Shown here piece by piece: positions 34,705 through 63,277 of a stretch of 64,000 bases of DNA. This DNA comes from Shewanella polaris. Its GTDB lineage: Bacteria > Pseudomonadota > Gammaproteobacteria > Enterobacterales > Shewanellaceae. The notes under the pieces are model-generated. The model was not told where the DNA came from and ran no database searches. It was given only the letters and a program-made list of their open reading frames with translations. The stretch spans positions 248,001-312,000 of the forward strand of contig NZ_CP041036.1 of the NCBI RefSeq assembly GCF_006385555.1. The letters run 5' to 3'. How positions within the stretch are numbered: the stretch's first letter is position 1; each line of letters opens with the position of its first letter. Made by a program: the position numbers and the translations under genes.

Positions 34705-37700
34705 TTAATTTTTAGGCAGTTTACGACCATATATCAGTAAATATATCGCTGGAATTACAAATAGCGATAATAGTGGCGCAGTCACCATACCGCCCACCAT
34801 AGGTGCAGCAATTTTTTGCATCACCTCATTACCCGTACCACTGCCCCACATGATAGGCAGTAAACCAAAAAATATGGTCGCGACTGTCATGGCTTTAGGG
34901 CGAATTCGCATTACAGCTCCTTCAATTAATGCTGCTGTTAAATCCGCTTTACTGTGGTAGTTATCGGCTTGTTTATAGGCCTTAATACTATTATTAAGGT
35001 ACACTTGCATCACCACGCCAAACTCAGCCGCGACCCCTGCTAATGCAATCATGCCGACCGATACCGCAACTGAAAAATTAAAGTCCAGCCCGTAAAGCAA
35101 CCACGCACTACCAACCAATGAAAAGGGCAAACTTAACATGATCACAGATGCTTGGGTTACTGAGCTAAATGTCATCATCAGCAGCATAAAAATTACTGCA
35201 AGCATTAATGGGATCACCATTTCCATTTTTGCATCAACTCGTTGCATGTACTCATACTGTCCAGCAAAACTATAGCTATAGCGTGGCGGAAGGGAAATCT
35301 GTTGCTTGAGAGCCTTTTCTGCTGTGACGATGTATTCACCAATTGAAATATCTTTCAGATCGACAAACACCCACGAGATAAGGCGACCATTTTCACTGGC
35401 CAGCATAGGGGCGCCATCACTAATGTTTAAGTCTGCTAAATAACTTAAGGGTAAGTACTTGCCCGTTTTGGTCATCACAGGTAAATTTCTGAGTTTCTCA
35501 ATGTTGTCACGTAGCTCTCGCGGGTAACGTATATTGATTGGATAGCGTTCTTGACCTTGAATCGACTCACCAATAGTCATGCCGCCAATCGCCATTTTGA
35601 CTACATCTTGGATGTCTTTTAAGGTCATGCCATAACGTGCGGCATTTTTAAGATCGGGTGTTATATCAATATACCGTCCGCCGCTACTGCGCTGTGAAAA
35701 CGCTGAGGCCGTGCCGGGTAATTGGCTCACAACCGCTTCTATTTCAGCACCGATGCGTTGTAGTTCCTCAACATTTGAACCCGATATCTTTATGCCAACA
35801 GGCGTTCTAACACCTGTGGATAGCATATCGATGCGGGTTTTAATCGGTTGCACCCAGGCATTGGTCATTCCTGGAATACGCACGGTTTTTTGCAGTTCTG
35901 CAATAATGCTTTCTAAGGTTACGCCTTCACGCCATTCAGTATTCGGTTTGAGCATAATGGTAGTTTCGAGCATCGTTAGCGGTGCAGGGTCTGTAGCGGT
36001 AATTGCGCGACCGACCTTACCAAATACCCGCTTAACTTCTGGAACGGTTTTTATCAAACGGTCTGTTTGTTGCAATATCTCCGCTGCTTTGCCAGCACTG
36101 ACGCTAGGTAACGTTGTCGGCATATAAAGCAGATCACCTTCTTCTAAGGTGGGCATAAATTCCGATCCCATTTGGCTTAATGGATAGTAAGCACTGAACA
36201 ACACAATGATGGCTAATCCAATGGTGATTTTAGGAAAATTAAGTACCCACTTTAGTGATGGCTGATACATTGCTATTAGTACTCGGCTGATGGGGTTTTT
36301 ACGTTCATCAGGGATTTTCCCGCGGACAAAATAACCCATTAATACCGGGATCAAGGTAATCGCTAAGATTGCCGATGCCGCCATGGTGAAGGTTTTGGTA
36401 AAGGCTAGCGGGTGGAACAAACGCCCTTCTTGTGCTTCAAGGGCAAATACCGGCGTAAAGCTCAAGGTAATGATCAATAAACTGAAGAATAATGCTGGGC
36501 CGACTTCAATAGAGGCTTCTTTTACAAGTTGCCAATGGTCTTCCCCCTCGGGAGCCTTACCGTGCTTGTGGCGATAATGTTCTAAATGCTTATGGGTATT
36601 TTCAACCATCACAATCGACGCATCAACCACTGCACCAATGGCAATGGCAATGCCCCCTAGGCTCATAATATTGGCATTGACACCAATGAGATTCATGGCG
36701 ATAAAACTGATCAAAATCGAAATAGGTAAAGTGATAATAGCAACTAATGTTGAGCGAGCATGCAGTAAAAATAATAAGCAAATGAGCCCGACAACCAGCA
36801 TTTCCTCTAGCACTTTATGGGTAAGATTATCGACTGAGCGTAAGATTAAGTCTGAACGGTCATAAGTGGTGACTAATTCAACTCCATCAGGCAGTCCATT
36901 ACTAATTTGCTTGAGTTTTTGCTTAACATTATTAATGGTTTCAAGTGCATTCTCGCCATAACGCATCACTACAATGCCGCCGACGACTTCACCTTCACCA
37001 TTCAGTTCGGCAATACCACGACGGGCCGCTGGTCCGGTTCTTAGTTGGGCTACATCTTTCATTAATACTGGGGTGCCAGTTTCAGATAAAATACCCAATG
37101 GAATTTCAGCAAAATCGGCAATGGTTTGACGATAACCACTTGAGGTGATCATATATTCAGCTTCGGCCATTTCAATGACTGAACCACCAGTCGAGCTATT
37201 GGAATTATCTAAAGCATTTTTAATGGTCATTAAATCTATTTGGTACAGAGCCAACTTATGCGGGTCGACAACCACTTGATATGTTTGTTCCATACCGCCA
37301 ACAGTGGCAACTTCTGATACACCAGCAACACTTTGTAATTCGAGCTTTAAAAACCAATCTTGTAACGAACGTAATTGGGCTAAATCATATTGACCATTGC
37401 GATCGACTAAGGCGTATTGAAAAATCCAACCCACACCAGATGCATCAGGGCCAATGCTTGGTGTGACACCTGCTGGTAGTTGATCTTGGGTTTGCGATAA
37501 ATATTCTAAAACCCGTGAGCGAGCCCAATAAATATCGGTGCCATCTTCAAAAATGACGTACACAAACGAATCACCAAACATCGAAAAGCCACGCACCGTT
37601 TTAGCACCTGGCACGGCAAGCATGGCAGAGGACAAAGGATAGGTAATTTGATCTTCAACCAATTGTGGTGCTTGACCTGGATATGACGTTTTAACAATGA

Positions 37701-37839
37701 CTTGCACATCTGATAAGTCAGGCAGCGCATCGAGCGGTGTCGTGCGCATGGCTTGATAACCCACTAACGCTATAACGACGGTGAATATTAACACCATCAC
37801 GCGTTGTTTTATCGAGGCACTAATTATTTTTGCTAACAT
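34705..37839 (-). CDS. Heavy-metal RND efflux pump, CusA/CzcA family
   Basis: A 1044-residue resistance-nodulation-division proton antiporter of the heavy-metal (HME) branch. Twelve membrane helices and two large periplasmic loops are visible. The start with TPLDALPDLSDVQVIVKTSYPGQAPQ and the helix-4 region with GAVVDASIVMVEN are HME signatures. The second loop has methionines fitting Cu/Ag export. Family context suggests a copper/silver pump of CusA type, but zinc or cobalt cannot be excluded. It is encoded after the adaptor gene with 11 bases between; no outer-membrane channel gene is present in the window. Confidence 0.92.
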   Translation of the reverse strand: MLAKIISASIKQRVMVLIFTVVIALVGYQAMRTTPLDALPDLSDVQVIVKTSYPGQAPQLVEDQITYPLSSAMLAVPGAKTVRGFSMFGDSFVYVIFEDGTDIYWARSRVLEYLSQTQDQLPAGVTPSIGPDASGVGWIFQYALVDRNGQYDLAQLRSLQDWFLKLELQSVAGVSEVATVGGMEQTYQVVVDPHKLALYQIDLMTIKNALDNSNSSTGGSVIEMAEAEYMITSSGYRQTIADFAEIPLGILSETGTPVLMKDVAQLRTGPAARRGIAELNGEGEVVGGIVVMRYGENALETINNVKQKLKQISNGLPDGVELVTTYDRSDLILRSVDNLTHKVLEEMLVVGLICLLFLLHARSTLVAIITLPISILISFIAMNLIGVNANIMSLGGIAIAIGAVVDASIVMVENTHKHLEHYRHKHGKAPEGEDHWQLVKEASIEVGPALFFSLLIITLSFTPVFALEAQEGRLFHPLAFTKTFTMAASAILAITLIPVLMGYFVRGKIPDERKNPISRVLIAMYQPSLKWVLNFPKITIGLAIIVLFSAYYPLSQMGSEFMPTLEEGDLLYMPTTLPSVSAGKAAEILQQTDRLIKTVPEVKRVFGKVGRAITATDPAPLTMLETTIMLKPNTEWREGVTLESIIAELQKTVRIPGMTNAWVQPIKTRIDMLSTGVRTPVGIKISGSNVEELQRIGAEIEAVVSQLPGTASAFSQRSSGGRYIDITPDLKNAARYGMTLKDIQDVVKMAIGGMTIGESIQGQERYPINIRYPRELRDNIEKLRNLPVMTKTGKYLPLSYLADLNISDGAPMLASENGRLISWVFVDLKDISIGEYIVTAEKALKQQISLPPRYSYSFAGQYEYMQRVDAKMEMVIPLMLAVIFMLLMMTFSSVTQASVIMLSLPFSLVGSAWLLYGLDFNFSVAVSVGMIALAGVAAEFGVVMQVYLNNSIKAYKQADNYHSKADLTAALIEGAVMRIRPKAMTVATIFFGLLPIMWGSGTGNEVMQKIAAPMVGGMVTAPLLSLFVIPAIYLLIYGRKLPKN

Positions 37840-37850
37840 GACAGTGCTCC

Positions 37851-39359
37851 TTAGTGCTGGTGAGCATCGGTTGTGGCATTTTCACTGGTCGAAGTGTTAT
37901 TGCTTAACCTTTGTAAACTACCTTGAATGCTGGCTTCAGAGTCCAGTAAAAACTGCCCAGATATGACGACTTTGTCATGTTCATTGAGCCCCTCTAAAAT
38001 CTCAGCCTTACCGCCCGACATGATACCAATTTTTACTGGTACGGAAGCAAAGCTAGTATCACTACGCTGTACTACAACACGATTCTCGCGACCGGTGAGA
38101 ATAAGCGCTTCGGTCGGTACCGTAAGCACGTTATTCTTAGGCAGTCCAAATAAGGTTACATCAACCAAGCTACCCGGTTTGAGTTTGTCATTAAGATTAT
38201 TAAGCTTAATCCGTACTCGCATTGCTCGGGTAACGGGGTCTAATTCGGGGTAGATATAGTCAATCGTTGAATCAATATCAAACAGCCCTTGAGCCGCCGC
38301 ACTCACAGTGACTTTACGACCTTGTTGCAGCCAACTTTGCTCGTTTTCAAATACATCAGCAATAACCCAAATGCTGTCTAAATTAACGATTTCAAATAGG
38401 GTATCCCCTGGCTGAATATACATACCAGGACGAATTGTAAGCTTACTGATAAAACCATCTTGCGGAGCATAAAAAGGCACTTTAAAAATGGTTTCACCGG
38501 TTTTTTCTAAACGGTTAATCACCTTACTATCAACACCCAGTAATGCTAAGCGCTTGCGTGCTTTAAGTAATAAACTACTGCCTCGTTTTTTATCTTGTTT
38601 AAGGTAGTCTTGTGCTTGAGAGTAATCGTCTTGGGCATTGACCAATTCAGGCGAGTAAAGCTCATATAACAATTGGCCCTTTTTTATCTTTTGACCAACA
38701 TTATGCACCATGAGCGTTTCTATCCATCCGGTTGCACGGGTATGCACATGGCCAATAGTATCTTCGTTATATTGCACTGTGCCTATGGTGTTCACTTGGC
38801 GGGATAAGTTTGATTTTTCAACAATATGACTGCGCATGCCTAATGCTTGTTGCATACCGCCAGAAACGCCAACAACAATTTCTTGGCTTGCATCAACAAC
38901 GGTGACTTTCTCAAGGTTCATGCCACAGATTGGGCATGTGCCAGGGACATCGGACACCACATGAGGATGCATTGGACAGACATATTTTACATTGGTGCTA
39001 TCGTCCTGATTTGCCGTAGGCAGCAATGCCGGTTTAGATTGACTAAATACCTTATCGGCTTGGCTTTTTTCTACAGGGGTCGTATTTTGCATGTTTGGCA
39101 TTTGATGTTGAGTGTCGTCAACGGTGGACTCTTCTTCCTCCTCTTTGACGACGAGAAACATATTACAGATGGGACAGGTTCCCTCTTTATCACTGATAAC
39201 TTCAGGGTGCATTGGGCAAGTATAGGTTTTACTGGCTTGTGACAGATGCTGGGCATGGTCGTGTTCAGCAGCATAAACGGCAGGTGATGTCAGAGCAACT
39301 GGGATGGTTATCCCAACAAATGCGCCCAGTAGCATGCTAGAGAGTGGAAATTTTTTCAT
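37851..39359 (-). CDS. RND adaptor (CusB type) with two N-terminal metal-binding domains
   Basis: A 502-residue periplasmic adaptor. After a signal peptide (about 1-31) come two heavy-metal-binding domains, each with CPMHPxV and a later CPICxM (about 48-67 and 128-147). These are followed by the membrane-fusion-protein hairpin and beta-barrel (YSPELVNAQDDYSQAQDYL, then PQDGFISKLTIRPGMYIQPGDTLF). The start MKKF at 39359 has CGAGGG upstream and is preferred to the longer frame to 39401. The N-terminal ~100 residues are duplicated upstream as a separate small gene. The two domains could shuttle Cu(I)/Ag(I) as CusF does. Confidence 0.9.
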   Translation of the reverse strand: MKKFPLSSMLLGAFVGITIPVALTSPAVYAAEHDHAQHLSQASKTYTCPMHPEVISDKEGTCPICNMFLVVKEEEEESTVDDTQHQMPNMQNTTPVEKSQADKVFSQSKPALLPTANQDDSTNVKYVCPMHPHVVSDVPGTCPICGMNLEKVTVVDASQEIVVGVSGGMQQALGMRSHIVEKSNLSRQVNTIGTVQYNEDTIGHVHTRATGWIETLMVHNVGQKIKKGQLLYELYSPELVNAQDDYSQAQDYLKQDKKRGSSLLLKARKRLALLGVDSKVINRLEKTGETIFKVPFYAPQDGFISKLTIRPGMYIQPGDTLFEIVNLDSIWVIADVFENEQSWLQQGRKVTVSAAAQGLFDIDSTIDYIYPELDPVTRAMRVRIKLNNLNDKLKPGSLVDVTLFGLPKNNVLTVPTEALILTGRENRVVVQRSDTSFASVPVKIGIMSGGKAEILEGLNEHDKVVISGQFLLDSEASIQGSLQRLSNNTSTSENATTDAHQH

Positions 39360-39469
39360 AAAACCCTCGATATTCATCATGACAATACTGACGATCGTCA
39401 TGATGAATAAACGCTAAAAAATAATAATATTGGATATGTTCAACACGCAATAGCGATCAATTGAACTTA
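39054..39469 (-). repeat. Tandem duplication, copy A (inside the adaptor gene)
   Basis: This segment and 39470-39870 are adjacent direct copies, diverged but alignable over leader, signal peptide and first metal-binding domain. Shared marks include the leader GATCAATTGAA, the CGATATTCATCATGACAAT block before the start codon, and the protein sequence AEHDHAQHLSQASKTYTCPM against VEHDHAQHQSQASKTYTCPM. Confidence 0.8.
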
Positions 39470-57939: not shown

Positions 57940-58113
57940 GCCATGTTGTTGCCTCAACGATGGCATGTCCTCCTATTGTCTAGAAGTACATCACGCTTAG
58001 GGTGTTAATGCCATGCTCAATAATTTTCTGAACAATTAAGAGTGGTGCAAGCTTTTCAATTTAAGGCTCACTTCTAAATGGCCATTATTTAGGTTAAGGG
58101 CTACTCAGGTAAA

Positions 58114-60327
58114 TTATCCCTTTTCTAAGTTGTTATCAGGAAACAATGGGATCGGTCGACATACTCCGTACCCTTGTGCAAAATCAACTCCCATTTCATC
58201 TAGGATTTCTATAATGGATTGATTTTCGGCAAATTCGGCAATGGTAATTTTTCCCATGATATGACCGATTTGGTTAATAGTTTGAGTAATCGCACGGTCG
58301 ACCGCATCATTTTCTAAATTTTTGACAAAGCTACCATCGATTTTCAGATAATCAACGGGTAAATTTTTAAGGTATCCAAAAGAACTAGAGCCTGTACCGA
58401 AATCATCCAACGCAAATTTAACACCTATTTCTTTACATGCTGTGATGAACTCGATTGCAGAGTGCATGTCTTTCACCGCTGCTGTTTCTGTTATTTCAAA
58501 GCAAAGGCATTGTGGATCGATATTATATTCTATAATTTTCTGTTTGATATATTCAAATAGGTCCAATGAATTAATAGACAATCCTGACAGGTTGATGTTG
58601 ACTATCAATGTCTTGTTCTCATGAATTTGCTGCAAAAGGTGGAATCCAGACAACACCTTATTGATTACCCAACGATCAATTTCCCTGATTAGATTGTATC
58701 GTTCTGCAGCCGGAAGAAAATGACCAGGAAGAATGATTTCACCTTCATTCGATACCATCCTTAAAAGGACTTCAAGGTGTAAGCATGATTCGTCATCTGA
58801 AGTAAGGGAACGATAGACTTGATGGTATAGAACGAATCGATCATCTTTCAAGGCTGAATTAATACGTCCTACCCATCCAGTTTGGCTTCGTCTGTCGGCT
58901 AATTCTATATCGCTCTCTTTATATTGGCATACCTGATGGCGTCCTTGCTCTTTAGCCCAGTAACACGCGGAGTCAGCCTGACCTATAATTTCTTTGCAGC
59001 TAAAACTGTCATTTACTATTGCGGTAAAGCCTATACTTATTCCAACCGTATATATTTGCTTTTCCCAGACAATCTGGAATTCTTCAATCGCATTGAGTAA
59101 CGCTTGAGCTATTAATTTTCCTCTAGTTTCATCACAACACTCAAGAATTAAACCAAATTCATCACCACCAAGACGAGCTAGAGTATCGTTTGCACGTATT
59201 TGGGAGGACATGATGCGAGATAATTGTTGGAGCACATCATCTCCGGCACTATGCCCACATGAATCATTTATTATTTTGAAGCGGTCGAGATCCATGTAGC
59301 AAATGATATATATTTGACCATTGTCAATTGTATTATCTATGGCTTTTGTCACTCGGTTTTCAAATTCACGGCGATTGATTAATCCCGTTAACAAATCATG
59401 TGTAGCTTCCCAGGATTGTCTTTCAAGATGTTTTCGGGCGACAGTGACATCACGTAAACATAAAACACCACCAATAAGCTTCTTTCTCTGGTCAAATATG
59501 GGGGCTGATCGCTCTTCGACCGCGATTTTAAGGTCTCCTGATATTTCGAGCATACTACGTTGGTTGCAAGTTGCCACAGTTCCAGAATCTAATGTTTCTT
59601 GTAGGGCACTGTCTATTGCAAATCCAGTATGCATATCTGTGAGCTGAAGATGATCTGCTATGGACTCACCCTGTAACTCAGCTAATGATTTTCCCAGCAT
59701 TTTCTCTGCTGGCAAGTTTAAATAGATAAGATTACCATTAATATCAAATAGTAATATTGCATCGGCAATAGAATGCAATGTGGTTACTGCCCGTTCTTTT
59801 TCGGTATATAATTCGTCTGAAATTCGTTGAAGCGCCCTTATCGGTAGTAAACGTAGAACAAGTAAAATGAGTAAGGCTAAGACGAAACCAAGTACAAAGG
59901 CCAAAAGTATATTTTTATATAGCGTCGAAAGTGATGCACTAACAACGATATTCCCAACAACTTTATCAATATCATAAAGTGGATAGCTGCGTTGCACCGT
60001 AAAACCAGTTAGAGCCTCTCCGGATGAAGTGATGACTTCTCCTTCTGAATCGAGTATCTGGATGTATTCGTTGTCTAATCGCACTGGCTCTCTACTGAGT
60101 ACACCTTGTAAGCGGTTCTCAGCATACATCCACGTATCGGGAAGAGTTGTGATTAAATCAGCCTGAGCATTGGCTTTAATCTTAGCTTTAAAGCTGAGTG
60201 ATTTTGTTAGGTCGTTATATGCCGTTAGTGTGTAACCTACAGGCAGGCTAATACCGACCAGTAAGGATATTAACAGTGCATAATGGGTTAACGTCTTCGC
60301 CAGTCGCGTATCTTGAGTAGATAACAT
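58114..60327 (-). CDS. Membrane PAS-GGDEF-EAL c-di-GMP enzyme
   Basis: A 737-residue inner-membrane protein. It has a first helix (about 14-34), a periplasmic domain of about 110 residues, a second helix (about 148-170), a PAS domain (about 190-300), a GGDEF domain and an EAL domain. The GGDEF site is intact (RLGGDEFGLIL), with an RxxD inhibitory site (RAND) five residues before it. The EAL core reads EVL, with FEITETAA, LDDFGTGSSSFGYL and YLKIDGSFVKN present, so phosphodiesterase activity is plausible. The gene lies ten bases after a PstS-like gene, suggesting that the periplasmic protein controls it. Confidence 0.93.
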   Translation of the reverse strand: MLSTQDTRLAKTLTHYALLISLLVGISLPVGYTLTAYNDLTKSLSFKAKIKANAQADLITTLPDTWMYAENRLQGVLSREPVRLDNEYIQILDSEGEVITSSGEALTGFTVQRSYPLYDIDKVVGNIVVSASLSTLYKNILLAFVLGFVLALLILLVLRLLPIRALQRISDELYTEKERAVTTLHSIADAILLFDINGNLIYLNLPAEKMLGKSLAELQGESIADHLQLTDMHTGFAIDSALQETLDSGTVATCNQRSMLEISGDLKIAVEERSAPIFDQRKKLIGGVLCLRDVTVARKHLERQSWEATHDLLTGLINRREFENRVTKAIDNTIDNGQIYIICYMDLDRFKIINDSCGHSAGDDVLQQLSRIMSSQIRANDTLARLGGDEFGLILECCDETRGKLIAQALLNAIEEFQIVWEKQIYTVGISIGFTAIVNDSFSCKEIIGQADSACYWAKEQGRHQVCQYKESDIELADRRSQTGWVGRINSALKDDRFVLYHQVYRSLTSDDESCLHLEVLLRMVSNEGEIILPGHFLPAAERYNLIREIDRWVINKVLSGFHLLQQIHENKTLIVNINLSGLSINSLDLFEYIKQKIIEYNIDPQCLCFEITETAAVKDMHSAIEFITACKEIGVKFALDDFGTGSSSFGYLKNLPVDYLKIDGSFVKNLENDAVDRAITQTINQIGHIMGKITIAEFAENQSIIEILDEMGVDFAQGYGVCRPIPLFPDNNLEKG

Positions 60328-60337
60328 CTAATTCAAC

Positions 60338-61168
60338 CTATTCAGGTATATAATTTCCATTGCTCTCCAAAATCTCTTTTCCTATTGTAGAGTTAACGAA
60401 ACTAATAAAGTCAGCAACATAAATCGGAATGTTTTTAGGAAGAATAAAGTAGAAATGTTTGATCATAGGGTAGCTACCTGCAATACAAGTCTCTGCTGTT
60501 GGCTTTACGCCATTTAACTTTAAGGCATGAATAGATCTTTTTTCAGAAAGGATTAGTGCCAAAGTAGTTACACCGAAACTACCAGGGGTTTGTTCAATTT
60601 TTTCGACGGTTTCTTGATCAGTAGATGCAAATAATAGCCCTGTGCGCTTTTCTGCGAATTGGATAGCATTTTTAAGTTCTGGGGAAAGTTTTTCCAGTTG
60701 TTTGGTATTGTCATCGTCATGCTGGCGGATGATTGGGCGAACTAAATCTCCATTCGGCCATATTGTTTGTTTACCGTTATAAATATCAACAAGCTCATCA
60801 ATAGAAATATCCGTAACATCTAAATTATTTGATACCGCAATTACTGTGGGGGTACGAGCATATTCTATTACGCTAGCTTCTGCTGTAAACTCCGTTTTTT
60901 TGAATCCGCGAGTACTTAACCCAATATCGATTTTACCACGAGGTACAGCTTTAATTGCACCGCTACTACCAATGCTGGGCAAAACAGTAATGTGTATGTC
61001 TGGATTACGTTCTTGGTATGCATTAGCCAGTATCTGCATTGTGCCTAGTGCGTTTCCTGTACCGCCAATGATAATATTTTCTGCCCATACAGATGAACAG
61101 AAAAATATTCCCAAACAGGCCAGCGATAAACAAGACTGTGTTATCCATTTTTGACATGCTACAAACAT
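60338..61168 (-). CDS. PstS-like periplasmic binding protein
   Basis: A 276-residue protein with a signal peptide (cleaved near VWAEN) and a PstS-type type II binding-protein fold. IIIGGTGNALGTMQILANAYQ matches the N-terminal anion-binding loop and PSIGSSGAIKAVPRGKIDIGLSTRG the second loop. No pstCAB genes are near. It is the first gene of a two-gene unit with the PAS-GGDEF-EAL gene, so a sensory role is more likely than transport. The ligand may be phosphate or another oxyanion, which is inference. Confidence 0.85.
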   Translation of the reverse strand: MFVACQKWITQSCLSLACLGIFFCSSVWAENIIIGGTGNALGTMQILANAYQERNPDIHITVLPSIGSSGAIKAVPRGKIDIGLSTRGFKKTEFTAEASVIEYARTPTVIAVSNNLDVTDISIDELVDIYNGKQTIWPNGDLVRPIIRQHDDDNTKQLEKLSPELKNAIQFAEKRTGLLFASTDQETVEKIEQTPGSFGVTTLALILSEKRSIHALKLNGVKPTAETCIAGSYPMIKHFYFILPKNIPIYVADFISFVNSTIGKEILESNGNYIPE

Positions 61169-62025
61169 ATTTACCCTCTTTTATCGTGTTAATGATTATA
61201 TTTATAATTTAATCAGTTAGTTAAAGATGCGGTAAGTGTTTAAATCCTGTCGTCTTTACCCGGAGTTATTATTTCATACAATGTGTATAACCACGTGATA
61301 CTAACGTGGTGTAACTACAATCATTTTAGTACTTTAAAATGCTATTCACTCTGTTATTGTAAAAACATGCTCTCTATAAAAATATTATGGTTAGTACAAT
61401 ATAGCCCGTAAAAATAAGGTTGGTACGAATAGTCCAATAAATAGATTATTGGTCGAAATCAATAATTCAATATCGCATGTTTAGTAATCGGCCAACAGTG
61501 ACTTTTCTTTATCAGTAACTTTCTTCATCAATAAATGTTAGCGCAATTTATAAAGGTAGATAAATTTCAAAACCTCTTATATAAAATGTAACCTCACCCA
61601 ACAATAACGGTTGTGAGTCACTCTATAGATAGCTAGTTTTTATGATGAATTCGGGCTAAACCTTGTATCTAATATTCACGAGAACAATGGGTTGTCAGAT
61701 ACCTAGTAGTTAAAAAACCTAATACGTTAATGAAAGGCGTATGTGATATCAAAAGTGCGACTACACCTTAATATCTCCAATAAAAAACTTACTTAAATCA
61801 GCGGAAACGAGTGATGAAAAGTGAACGTTCTCGGTTTAAACCTGTCTTGGTTGCTATGTCGAGAGTGGGGTAAAAAAACACGCTTTAGCGGAGGGTTGAA
61901 CTATATTATGTGGTCAAAACTGTATAAAAACAAAGAGCGGCACTTGGTTGCAAGTGTCGCCTATTTGGTTAATGTGAATTACTCATTCATCTTACACTAA
62001 GTGTATCCAGCGCTTAGTTTCATTG
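61169..62025. other. Long intergenic region, about 860 bases
   Basis: No supportable gene in either strand; the longest ATG frames are under 25 codons. It holds the promoter of the PstS-like/GGDEF-EAL unit at its left end and a hairpin at 61937-61960 at its right end. No conserved RNA element was recognised. Confidence 0.5.
61918..61962 (-). terminator. Candidate terminator of the 62.0-62.4 kb gene
   Basis: The inverted repeat GCGGCACTTG / CAAGTGTCGC with a GTTG loop (61937-61960) is followed on the minus strand by TCTTTGTTTTTATAC. One arm position is mismatched on that strand. Confidence 0.5.
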
Positions 62026-62403
62026 TTAATCCGCTTGGTGTTCAAAAGTACGGCCGGTGTGTTGAGACTGATTGGTTTTAGCTCGAGTAAACATCTCTGC
62101 GTAAGGCGCTGTTGTTTCGCGTTGCACATTGGCGTTACTTTGGGAAAAGTGACCTTGTTGAGTCTGTGATTCTCGATGAGTTGAATGGTTATTACCAGAT
62201 TGGGCAAAGGCTTTACTTCTCAAGATTTTGTTGCCGAAAAGTTGGAAGGTAATAAAACTTAATAAGCCCAACATCAATAAAAAGGGTAGTAGCACAATGC
62301 TGGTGAATGCGATGCTAAAGAGCATAAGTGATGCCAAAATTGGGTTCATAGTCGAGAACCGATTTTTTAAATTGGCAGTGTGGAATGATTGATTAAATTT
62401 CAT
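62026..62403 (-). CDS. Small membrane protein with polar tail
   Basis: A 125-residue protein. Residues 20-58 form hydrophobic segments (MLFSIAFTSIVLLPFLLMLGLLSFITFQLFG). The C-terminal half is polar, rich in glutamine, serine and histidine, and probably disordered. AGGAG precedes ATG at 62403. The layout (double helix then basic residue cluster then polar tail) is repeated in the gene at 62.8 kb. No family recognised. Confidence 0.6.
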   Translation of the reverse strand: MKFNQSFHTANLKNRFSTMNPILASLMLFSIAFTSIVLLPFLLMLGLLSFITFQLFGNKILRSKAFAQSGNNHSTHRESQTQQGHFSQSNANVQRETTAPYAEMFTRAKTNQSQHTGRTFEHQAD

Positions 62404-62817
62404 AGTAACTCCTGAATGCACTTAGCTTGAAAATGAGTGCCTGAAAAACGTTACCTATACATCAGTAACGATGATTTAAAGAACAGTTTGCAATGATTAG
62501 ACATAATATGTCATGTTAAACCTGGTTAATGTTTAAGCTGGGGGGGATAACAATTTATTTTGTTGAGTCTTAACTTTCACCCGTCAATACCTTGCTGATG
62601 TTGGCTAAAGTTTTATTTTTAAGAGGTTTATATACCGAGACTAAGTGATTTTTGTGGGTTAGCCATAGATACGGTAAAAAGGTAAATGTCATCTTTACGC
62701 TTTGAGGTATTACTTCTCATCCTTTGCTTTAAACGGTTATTCGCCTTTATGAACATCTTTCTATCACGGCAAGCGGCAGTAAGGATAACTAATCAATATA
62801 AACCAATAACAGCATTT
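62404..62817. other. Intergenic region
   Basis: About 410 bases between the two small membrane-protein genes. A run of seven G lies at 62540-62546. No gene or terminator hairpin was seen. Confidence 0.5.
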
Positions 62818-63129
62818 TTAATGATTAATTATTCTGCTGGCTTGGCATGAAGTAACTGGTTTATCTTGTTCAATGTAGGGGTGAGTGTGATACCTATCTT
62901 TATTTGAGTTAGCTGATAAATAGGGCTCAGTAGGTGCCGAACGATGGGACTTCATGTATTGGCGACTTAAGAGGGTCATGCCAATGAAACCAACCAAAAT
63001 AAACAAGAGTATTAACGGTAACAACAACAGAAAAGCTAATAGGATTGTGACCGCTGTGGTAAATGCAGCGAGTGGGCGCATCTTTCGCAGTCGTTGAATG
63101 AGTTTATGGGTGCTAATTAACCTCAACAT
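62818..63129 (-). CDS. Small membrane protein, possible paralogue of the 62.0 kb gene
   Basis: A 103-residue protein with hydrophobic residues about 22-55 (LLLLPLILLFILVGFIGMTLL), then SRQYMKSH and a polar tail. AGGGGAGAGG lies directly before the ATG. Its organisation mirrors the neighbouring small protein; sequence identity is weak outside the helices. No known domain. Confidence 0.6.
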   Translation of the reverse strand: MLRLISTHKLIQRLRKMRPLAAFTTAVTILLAFLLLLPLILLFILVGFIGMTLLSRQYMKSHRSAPTEPYLSANSNKDRYHTHPYIEQDKPVTSCQASRIINH

Positions 63130-63277
63130 CCTCTCCCCTTAAATGTGGCTAAGCTTACACATTGTCTTATGTGGTTGCTTAATTGCCTTTCAGCATTATT
63201 ATTAAACAGTTTTGAGTAATTAGTTGGCTAAAAGTTCATAAATAGTGAAATTAATCACTATTTATCCTCTAAAAATT

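Follow-up and report, generated by a model that had tools for sequence, protein, structure and literature searches.

Can a binding protein of the phosphate-transport type serve a signalling receptor rather than a transporter, and what kind of ligand would it then detect? The question is raised by a stretch of 64,000 nucleotides from Shewanella polaris (contig NZ_CP041036.1, positions 248,001 to 312,000; hereafter the window), in which two genes on the minus strand (58114-61168), with ten bases between them and no pst genes beside them, encode a PstS-fold binding protein and a membrane-bound GGDEF-EAL protein (Table 1). An initial annotation of this DNA had described them as a two-gene unit with that spacing, and both genes were found at those positions. 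We propose that the two genes form one sensor, a portable two-protein receptor with swappable outputs that resembles NspS-MbaA and whose ligand is probably not phosphate, and we assign this reading a probability of roughly 0.7.

Table 1. Coordinates and supporting evidence for the gene pair, its domains, its pocket residues and its chromosomal site (window coordinates unless a locus is given).
Feature	Position	Strand	Evidence or remark
PstS-fold binding protein, first gene of the pair	60338..61168	-	276 aa
Signal-peptide-like segment, residues 1-29	61082..61168	-	sequence; N-terminal helix 2-22 in model; cleavage after A29 by eye
Arg87, common to both groups	60908..60910	-	R in 55/56 sensor-linked proteins and 24/24 controls
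Lobe-2 pocket motif R-Q-H-D-D-D-N-T, residues 148-155	60704..60727	-	column counts; helix begins at 153 in model
Asp184	60617..60619	-	D in 56/56 with a residue there; controls N 22/24, T 2/24
Intergenic ten-base spacer	60328..60337	-	same gene order and strand in 56/57 loci
Receptor-enzyme: membrane receptor + PAS + GGDEF + EAL	58114..60327	-	737 aa; Pfam
Conserved receptor N-terminus (SENS), residues 1-178	59794..60327	-	AlphaFold2 mean pLDDT 93.5
Loop between two membrane helices, residues ~37-138	59914..60219	-	hydropathy and model; limits approximate
PAS domain, residues ~184-298	59434..59778	-	Pfam
GGDEF domain with RxxD site, residues 308-464	58936..59406	-	Pfam; motifs
EAL domain (EVL variant), residues 489-725	58153..58863	-	Pfam; motifs
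Sel1-LysR variable interval	window 57940-63277; L145 6520-8355; L147 3332-8327		names by eye

The binding protein has a signal-peptide-like start and is probably secreted to the periplasm. PF12849 was its sole Pfam match at E <= 0.001 (88.6 bits), the NCBIfam PstS-family model TIGR02136 scored 81.6 bits, far under its cut-off of 206.6, and the sequences in the PDB that matched at E <= 0.001 were phosphate-type binding proteins. Its predicted structure has the PstS fold, and the 30 best matches in a VIA-align structure comparison were PstS or phosphate-binding-type chains; PhnD and AioX chains were absent among the 50 matches listed, an absence that excludes nothing. The partner protein contains two hydrophobic segments (best hydropathy windows 18-36 and 140-158), followed by the PAS, GGDEF and EAL domains. 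Read against motif definitions that we take to mark the GGDEF, I-site and EAL residues, it carries RAND-5-GGDEF, EVLLR, DDFGTG and AQGY, in agreement with the earlier impression that the GGDEF, RxxD I-site and EAL catalytic residues are intact, and both domains would be expected to be active enzymes.

Whether these two genes are more than accidental neighbours was assessed in 57 loci, namely the window's own, 32 of the 34 obtained by a pattern scan of GTDB species genomes, and 24 from class and phylum genome samples; the two scan loci left out were L062, in which there is no binding-protein frame, and L063, which holds a distant PstS (65 bits) and was kept as a control. A homologue of receptor residues 1-178 adjoins the binding-protein gene on the same strand in 56 of the 57, the exception (L054) ending at a contig edge; in L059 the partner consists of the 67 residues left before the contig ends. 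This adjacency excludes a chance neighbourhood of the two genes, and the conservation beyond a few strains that the initial annotation had put forward as a test extends across phyla. The genes are closely spaced, with 44 of 56 gaps falling within -4 to 42 bases (40 at 1-42, and four overlaps of four bases), while in the remaining 12 the genes overlap further, through a mechanical choice of the first start codon. A receptor profile built from the window and the genome contig loci only, and so free of circularity, matched beside every one of the 24 loci added later (L068-L091; 43-147 bits).

The partners do not all carry the same output. By comparison of domain segments, 27 are histidine kinases, 23 are GGDEF-EAL proteins, four have GGDEF without EAL (one of these, L049, being cut by a contig end) and one, in L056, is unreadable. 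Pfam scans agree with these calls for 27 of the 54 fetched partners, for the window's own partner and for the orphan receptor in L154, and they also revealed kinases of hybrid type, bearing receiver and Hpt domains, as well as some partners that lack PAS. Among the NCBIfam matches listed for six kinase partners none reached its cut-off, save the general sensory_box domain model in one. The collected partners are thus split evenly between 27 kinases and 27 c-di-GMP enzymes; as a single small class (that of genome G679) supplies 17 of the 27 kinases, these proportions say little of nature at large. The initial annotation had met only the c-di-GMP version, and what is conserved is the binding protein together with the receptor N-terminus, the outputs being interchangeable.

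Phylogenetic comparison places the binding proteins apart from PstS-like controls. In a tree of 54 binding proteins (L056, L061 and L123 being omitted as truncated or broken) and eight of our 24 PstS-like controls, which were named by similarity alone with gene partners checked for one only, the sensor-linked set is separated by a branch with 100% SH-aLRT support, although the software cautions that the join brings long branches together. The second of the earlier tests, whether the binding protein groups with PstS proteins of transporters, was thereby answered in the negative as far as these controls are concerned. Counting changes of output label on this tree gives seven for c-di-GMP and six for kinase, two of the latter being forced by starred branches.

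The two sensor halves have also diverged together. Identity distances of the binding protein and of the receptor N-terminus correlate with r = 0.92 over 48 of 55 pairs (omitting L056, L061 and L123 and the very divergent L128-L131), a value reached in none of 2000 permutations, the best of which gave 0.17. Within the 26 c-di-GMP pairs the correlation of binding protein with receptor N-terminus was 0.91, that of binding protein with GGDEF domain 0.41, and that of receptor N-terminus with GGDEF domain 0.48. On these alignments, the binding protein and the receptor N-terminus are an evolutionary unit.

Genes of a Pst permease are lacking near the sensor loci. When the PstB-, PstA- and PstC-type proteins from the window's own genome served as queries, no PstA/PstC-type match was obtained in the flanks of the 56 fetched sensor loci (about 6-7 kb per side, less at contig ends); such matches were found beside the control L063 only, and 10 of the sensor loci have flanking ABC ATPases that matched at a generic level (E no better than 1e-24). 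Inspection of the window's neighbouring frames by eye likewise gave no PstC or PstA, so that the description of a binding-protein/receptor unit without nearby ABC transporter genes is borne out. The 4.65-Mb contig does carry a pstC-type match above the family cut-off; it lies at 2.96 Mb, which puts it some 2.65 Mb away. Together with the tree and the pocket described below, these neighbours led us to reject the assignment of the protein as the PstS of a transporter. It could still feed an ABC permease encoded elsewhere, with the receptor link as a secondary part of a dual role, and indeed the genome has a pst locus elsewhere and solute-binding proteins that serve both transporters and receptors are described in the accessible text of PMC9602780; we nevertheless consider this highly improbable, since the family forms a clade separate from the PstS-like controls and adjoins a receptor in every readable locus and PstC/PstA in none.

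The unit is rare, patchy and widespread, as judged from genus, class and phylum counts and from the species-genome scan. In a genus sample of 129 genomes the binding protein was found at E <= 1e-30 in the window's own genome only, and the protein database adds two Shewanella strains: in MEBiC00475 the binding protein is 92% identical and the receptor part of its partner 94%, and in A14 the binding protein is 72% and the partner 85% identical. It occurs in 6 of 369 genomes of the class sample (E <= 1e-40) and in 20 of 398 of the phylum sample (E <= 1e-35), the window's own included in both. A search of plasmid records returned matches below 60% identity only, with 22-28% among the matches listed. 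The 34 scan loci come from Marinomonas, Psychrosphaera, Alginatibacterium, Psychromonas, many Betaproteobacteria, Thermodesulfobacteriota, Nitrospirota and others, where the organism titles of single metagenome bins may be wrong, and the whole survey is bounded by public genomes and the thresholds given. The unit is commoner in the small class of G679 (17 of 48 genomes) than in the window's class (6 of 369).

The receptor follows the binding protein closely in these samples. It was detected in the same 20 of the 398 phylum genomes (E <= 1e-6) plus a marginal case (G473), in the same 6 of the 369 genomes of the window's class plus G473 and a strong case (G153), and, in G679's class, in the same 17 of 48 genomes, all 17 with kinase outputs; these co-occurrence counts are partly circular, in that 13 of the 42 rows of the receptor alignment came from loci found via the binding protein (10 from phylum-sample and three from class-sample loci), and as the 17 genomes of G679's class belong to the phylum 20 they are no independent test. 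The marginal receptor of G473 has no binding-protein partner. In G153 (L154, 1501-3444) a receptor with GGDEF-EAL output scored E 5.8e-34; the 1.5 kb upstream of it contain no binding-protein gene, the downstream side being hardly covered, and the genome has none at E <= 1e-40, which indicates that the receptor can occur by itself, perhaps sensing its ligand directly or sharing a partner encoded elsewhere. In the loci read, then, the binding protein goes with the receptor, and a receptor without it is rare.

What the receptor would present to the periplasm is a loop of about 100 residues. The model of SENS opens with two helices, one long (4-61) and one short (70-79), which are followed by four strands within residues 87-132 and a final helix (134-177). 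The predicted fold between the membrane helices is PDC/PAS-like, and in structure comparison PDC/Cache-type domains (CitA, WalK and LapD-type) were among the best rows. Identity in the ten best rows is 13-20%, and no Cache or CHASE profile in Pfam matched the N-termini of 42 receptor members better than E 0.015: sCache_3_2 (E 0.015) and dCache_3 (E 0.043) each matched a single member, and for the window's receptor the best match was CHASE5 at E 0.025, under its cut-off. LapA_dom (six members, best E 0.0034) and DUF5518 (three, best E 0.00031) were rejected as families for the loop, being taken for membrane-helix matches. A sequence search of the PDB with the loop gave nothing significant, 4zmm (called diguanylate cyclase) appearing at E 0.09. 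We describe the loop as PDC/Cache-like by prediction.

Domains that resemble the loop often bind ligands themselves. It is conceivable that the loop is the actual sensor and that the binding protein is a scaffold, a delivery factor or a constitutive inhibitor whose pocket is irrelevant to signalling, as the predicted fold, the CitA, WalK and LapD-type matches and the receptor of G153, with no adjoining binding protein, would allow. The pattern of conservation speaks against this, for pocket-side positions are among the most conserved of the binding-protein family while W66 is the sole invariant residue of the receptor alignment, and we regard the proposal as unlikely.

The pocket itself bears on the ligand. 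The seven phosphate ligands of PhoX, as given in the accessible text of PMC5439949, were mapped via alignments with other PstS proteins at about 20-28% identity, PhoX itself not being in the alignment; so mapped, two of the seven positions are kept in the binding-protein family, and acids are conserved in the second lobe. The Thr ligand position corresponds to Gly38 (55 of 55) and the Asn ligand position to Asp184 (56 of 56), while the position of PhoX Asp80 is not Asp in the 24 PstS-like controls either. At the lobe-2 motif site the controls have S-G-[TS] in 24 of 24. Among the 56 sensor-linked proteins with a residue there, position 152 is an acid in 55, the column count giving Ser in none, and position 154 is N or D in 52. 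A regular expression for the lobe-2 motif matched 48 of the 57 binding proteins, and one for S-G-T matched two of the 57 anywhere in the sequence. S68, R87 and R148 are retained.

The initial annotation had envisaged gating by a phosphate-like ligand, and this part of it was not supported, most of the PhoX phosphate positions being replaced and the second-lobe acids conserved. Because an anion site is partly preserved in lobe 1 (S68, R87) and lobe 2 bears acids, free phosphate is probably not the ligand, as judged from these residues; such a pocket would suit a ligand with one anionic and one basic end. The same two genes could nonetheless constitute a periplasmic sensor of phosphate, or of a close tetrahedral oxyanion, for c-di-GMP. 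The fold and the 30 best structure matches are those of PstS-type proteins, S68, R87 and R148 persist, and AioX and ArrX are oxyanion binders that act as dedicated sensors, for which the available portion of PMC5908839 indicates that binding residues alone did not fix specificity. However, the S-G-[TS] anion site has become [DE]-x-[ND] in most members, Thr and Asn have given way to Gly38 and Asp184 in every protein with a residue there, and acids in the site should repel phosphate, so we consider a phosphate or oxyanion ligand doubtful. Neighbouring genes did not help to name the ligand: clustering of 440 flanking frames produced, among the 14 largest clusters listed, no recurring gene that points to one. 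These clusters were signalling, ABC-ATPase, LysR or chemoreceptor-like proteins (by eye) or were confined to at most three loci.

The unit can be set beside several known systems. The likeness to NspS-MbaA with a different binding-protein family, proposed at the outset, was upheld, the upstream binding-protein gene and the two-helix GGDEF-EAL gene both being present. In Vibrio cholerae and Sinorhizobium meliloti too, according to the accessible parts of PMC8079147 and PMC9993111, the binding-protein gene lies immediately upstream of a two-helix GGDEF-EAL gene, the ligand is detected in the periplasm rather than imported, and MbaA has the same EVL variant. Membership in that system is ruled out, since the binding-protein family, the loop length and HAMP all differ. 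NspS is a homologue of PotD (polyamine) whereas the window's protein is PstS-type; S. meliloti MbaA has periplasmic residues 24-256 (about 230 aa) and a HAMP domain (PMC9993111, in the portion available), whereas here the loop has about 100 aa and Pfam gave no HAMP; and in the present unit, unlike NspS-MbaA, outputs are swapped with histidine kinases. AioX, ArxX and ArrX with their AioS-type histidine kinase, as presented in the text available from PMC5908839, resemble it in that a class II binding protein, from a branch of mostly oxyanion binders, acts as a sensor beside a membrane kinase. AioX and ArrX are PhnD-like, however, whereas the present protein is PstS-like (PF12849 being the one Pfam match), and unlike those systems it has no recurring neighbour cluster and is linked to a c-di-GMP output in roughly every second locus collected. 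With PstS and PhoX of the Pst transporter it shares the fold, but here there is no PstC/PstA alongside, the S-G-T, Thr and Asn ligand positions are replaced, and the proteins form a clade of their own.

The mechanism that we favour for the one-sensor reading is drawn from these comparisons. The secreted PstS-fold protein would bind a small solute in the periplasm and serve the receptor rather than a transporter, and in one of its two states it would dock on the short PDC-like loop of the membrane partner. Docking would shift the cytoplasmic balance between c-di-GMP synthesis by the GGDEF domain and breakdown by the EAL domain, as NspS does with MbaA; elsewhere the same binding protein and receptor N-terminus would drive histidine kinases or GGDEF-only cyclases. 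Both the docking and the class of ligand are what we infer. In the accessible text of PMC8079147 the cytoplasmic part of MbaA is a phosphodiesterase in vitro, and the proposal for NspS is that, once loaded with norspermidine, it docks on MbaA, suppresses the phosphodiesterase and lets the cyclase dominate. By analogy the loaded binding protein might favour synthesis here as well, a direction that we rate close to a coin toss.

The chromosomal site suggests how the pair came to this genome. On one side of it is a Sel1-repeat gene and on the other a LysR gene, homologues of which occur in the same order in four relatives that lack the pair; in the two of these four intervals that were read, by eye, one holds an EAL-only protein and the other two chemoreceptor-like proteins. 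As the contents of the interval differ among relatives, the pair was probably gained at a variable site. Elsewhere in the window (34705-39401) there is what looks by eye like a heavy-metal RND efflux pair (CusA/CusB-like). Locus L156 (1-1995 and 1992-3041; contig 33 of G493) contains a weakly similar second receptor (31 bits) with a seeming hybrid-kinase output that adjoins a family-3 solute-binding-like frame (by eye), possibly a similar arrangement built on a different binding-protein family.

A 2022 review (PMC8846402) states, in the part available, that c-di-GMP proteins include 27 families of the binding-protein clan, of which SBP_bac_3 alone had been studied in c-di-GMP networks. Among the papers listed by our searches of the open-access PMC literature, none reports in its title or listed abstract the pairing of a PstS-family protein with a GGDEF or kinase receptor. 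We put at even odds the fuller proposal of a previously undescribed system, in which a PstS-derived binding protein that no longer serves transport and is no longer specific for phosphate works with its own short PDC-like receptor domain, the two being coupled, in Proteobacteria and further afield, to either histidine kinases or c-di-GMP enzymes, with one conserved and probably zwitterionic or amine-bearing ligand. The unit thus provides a case, open to testing throughout a family, in which a transport-type binding protein would act purely as a receptor, and since the same receptor half is fused to different read-outs, screening once for the ligand could reveal what dozens of kinases and cyclases respond to.
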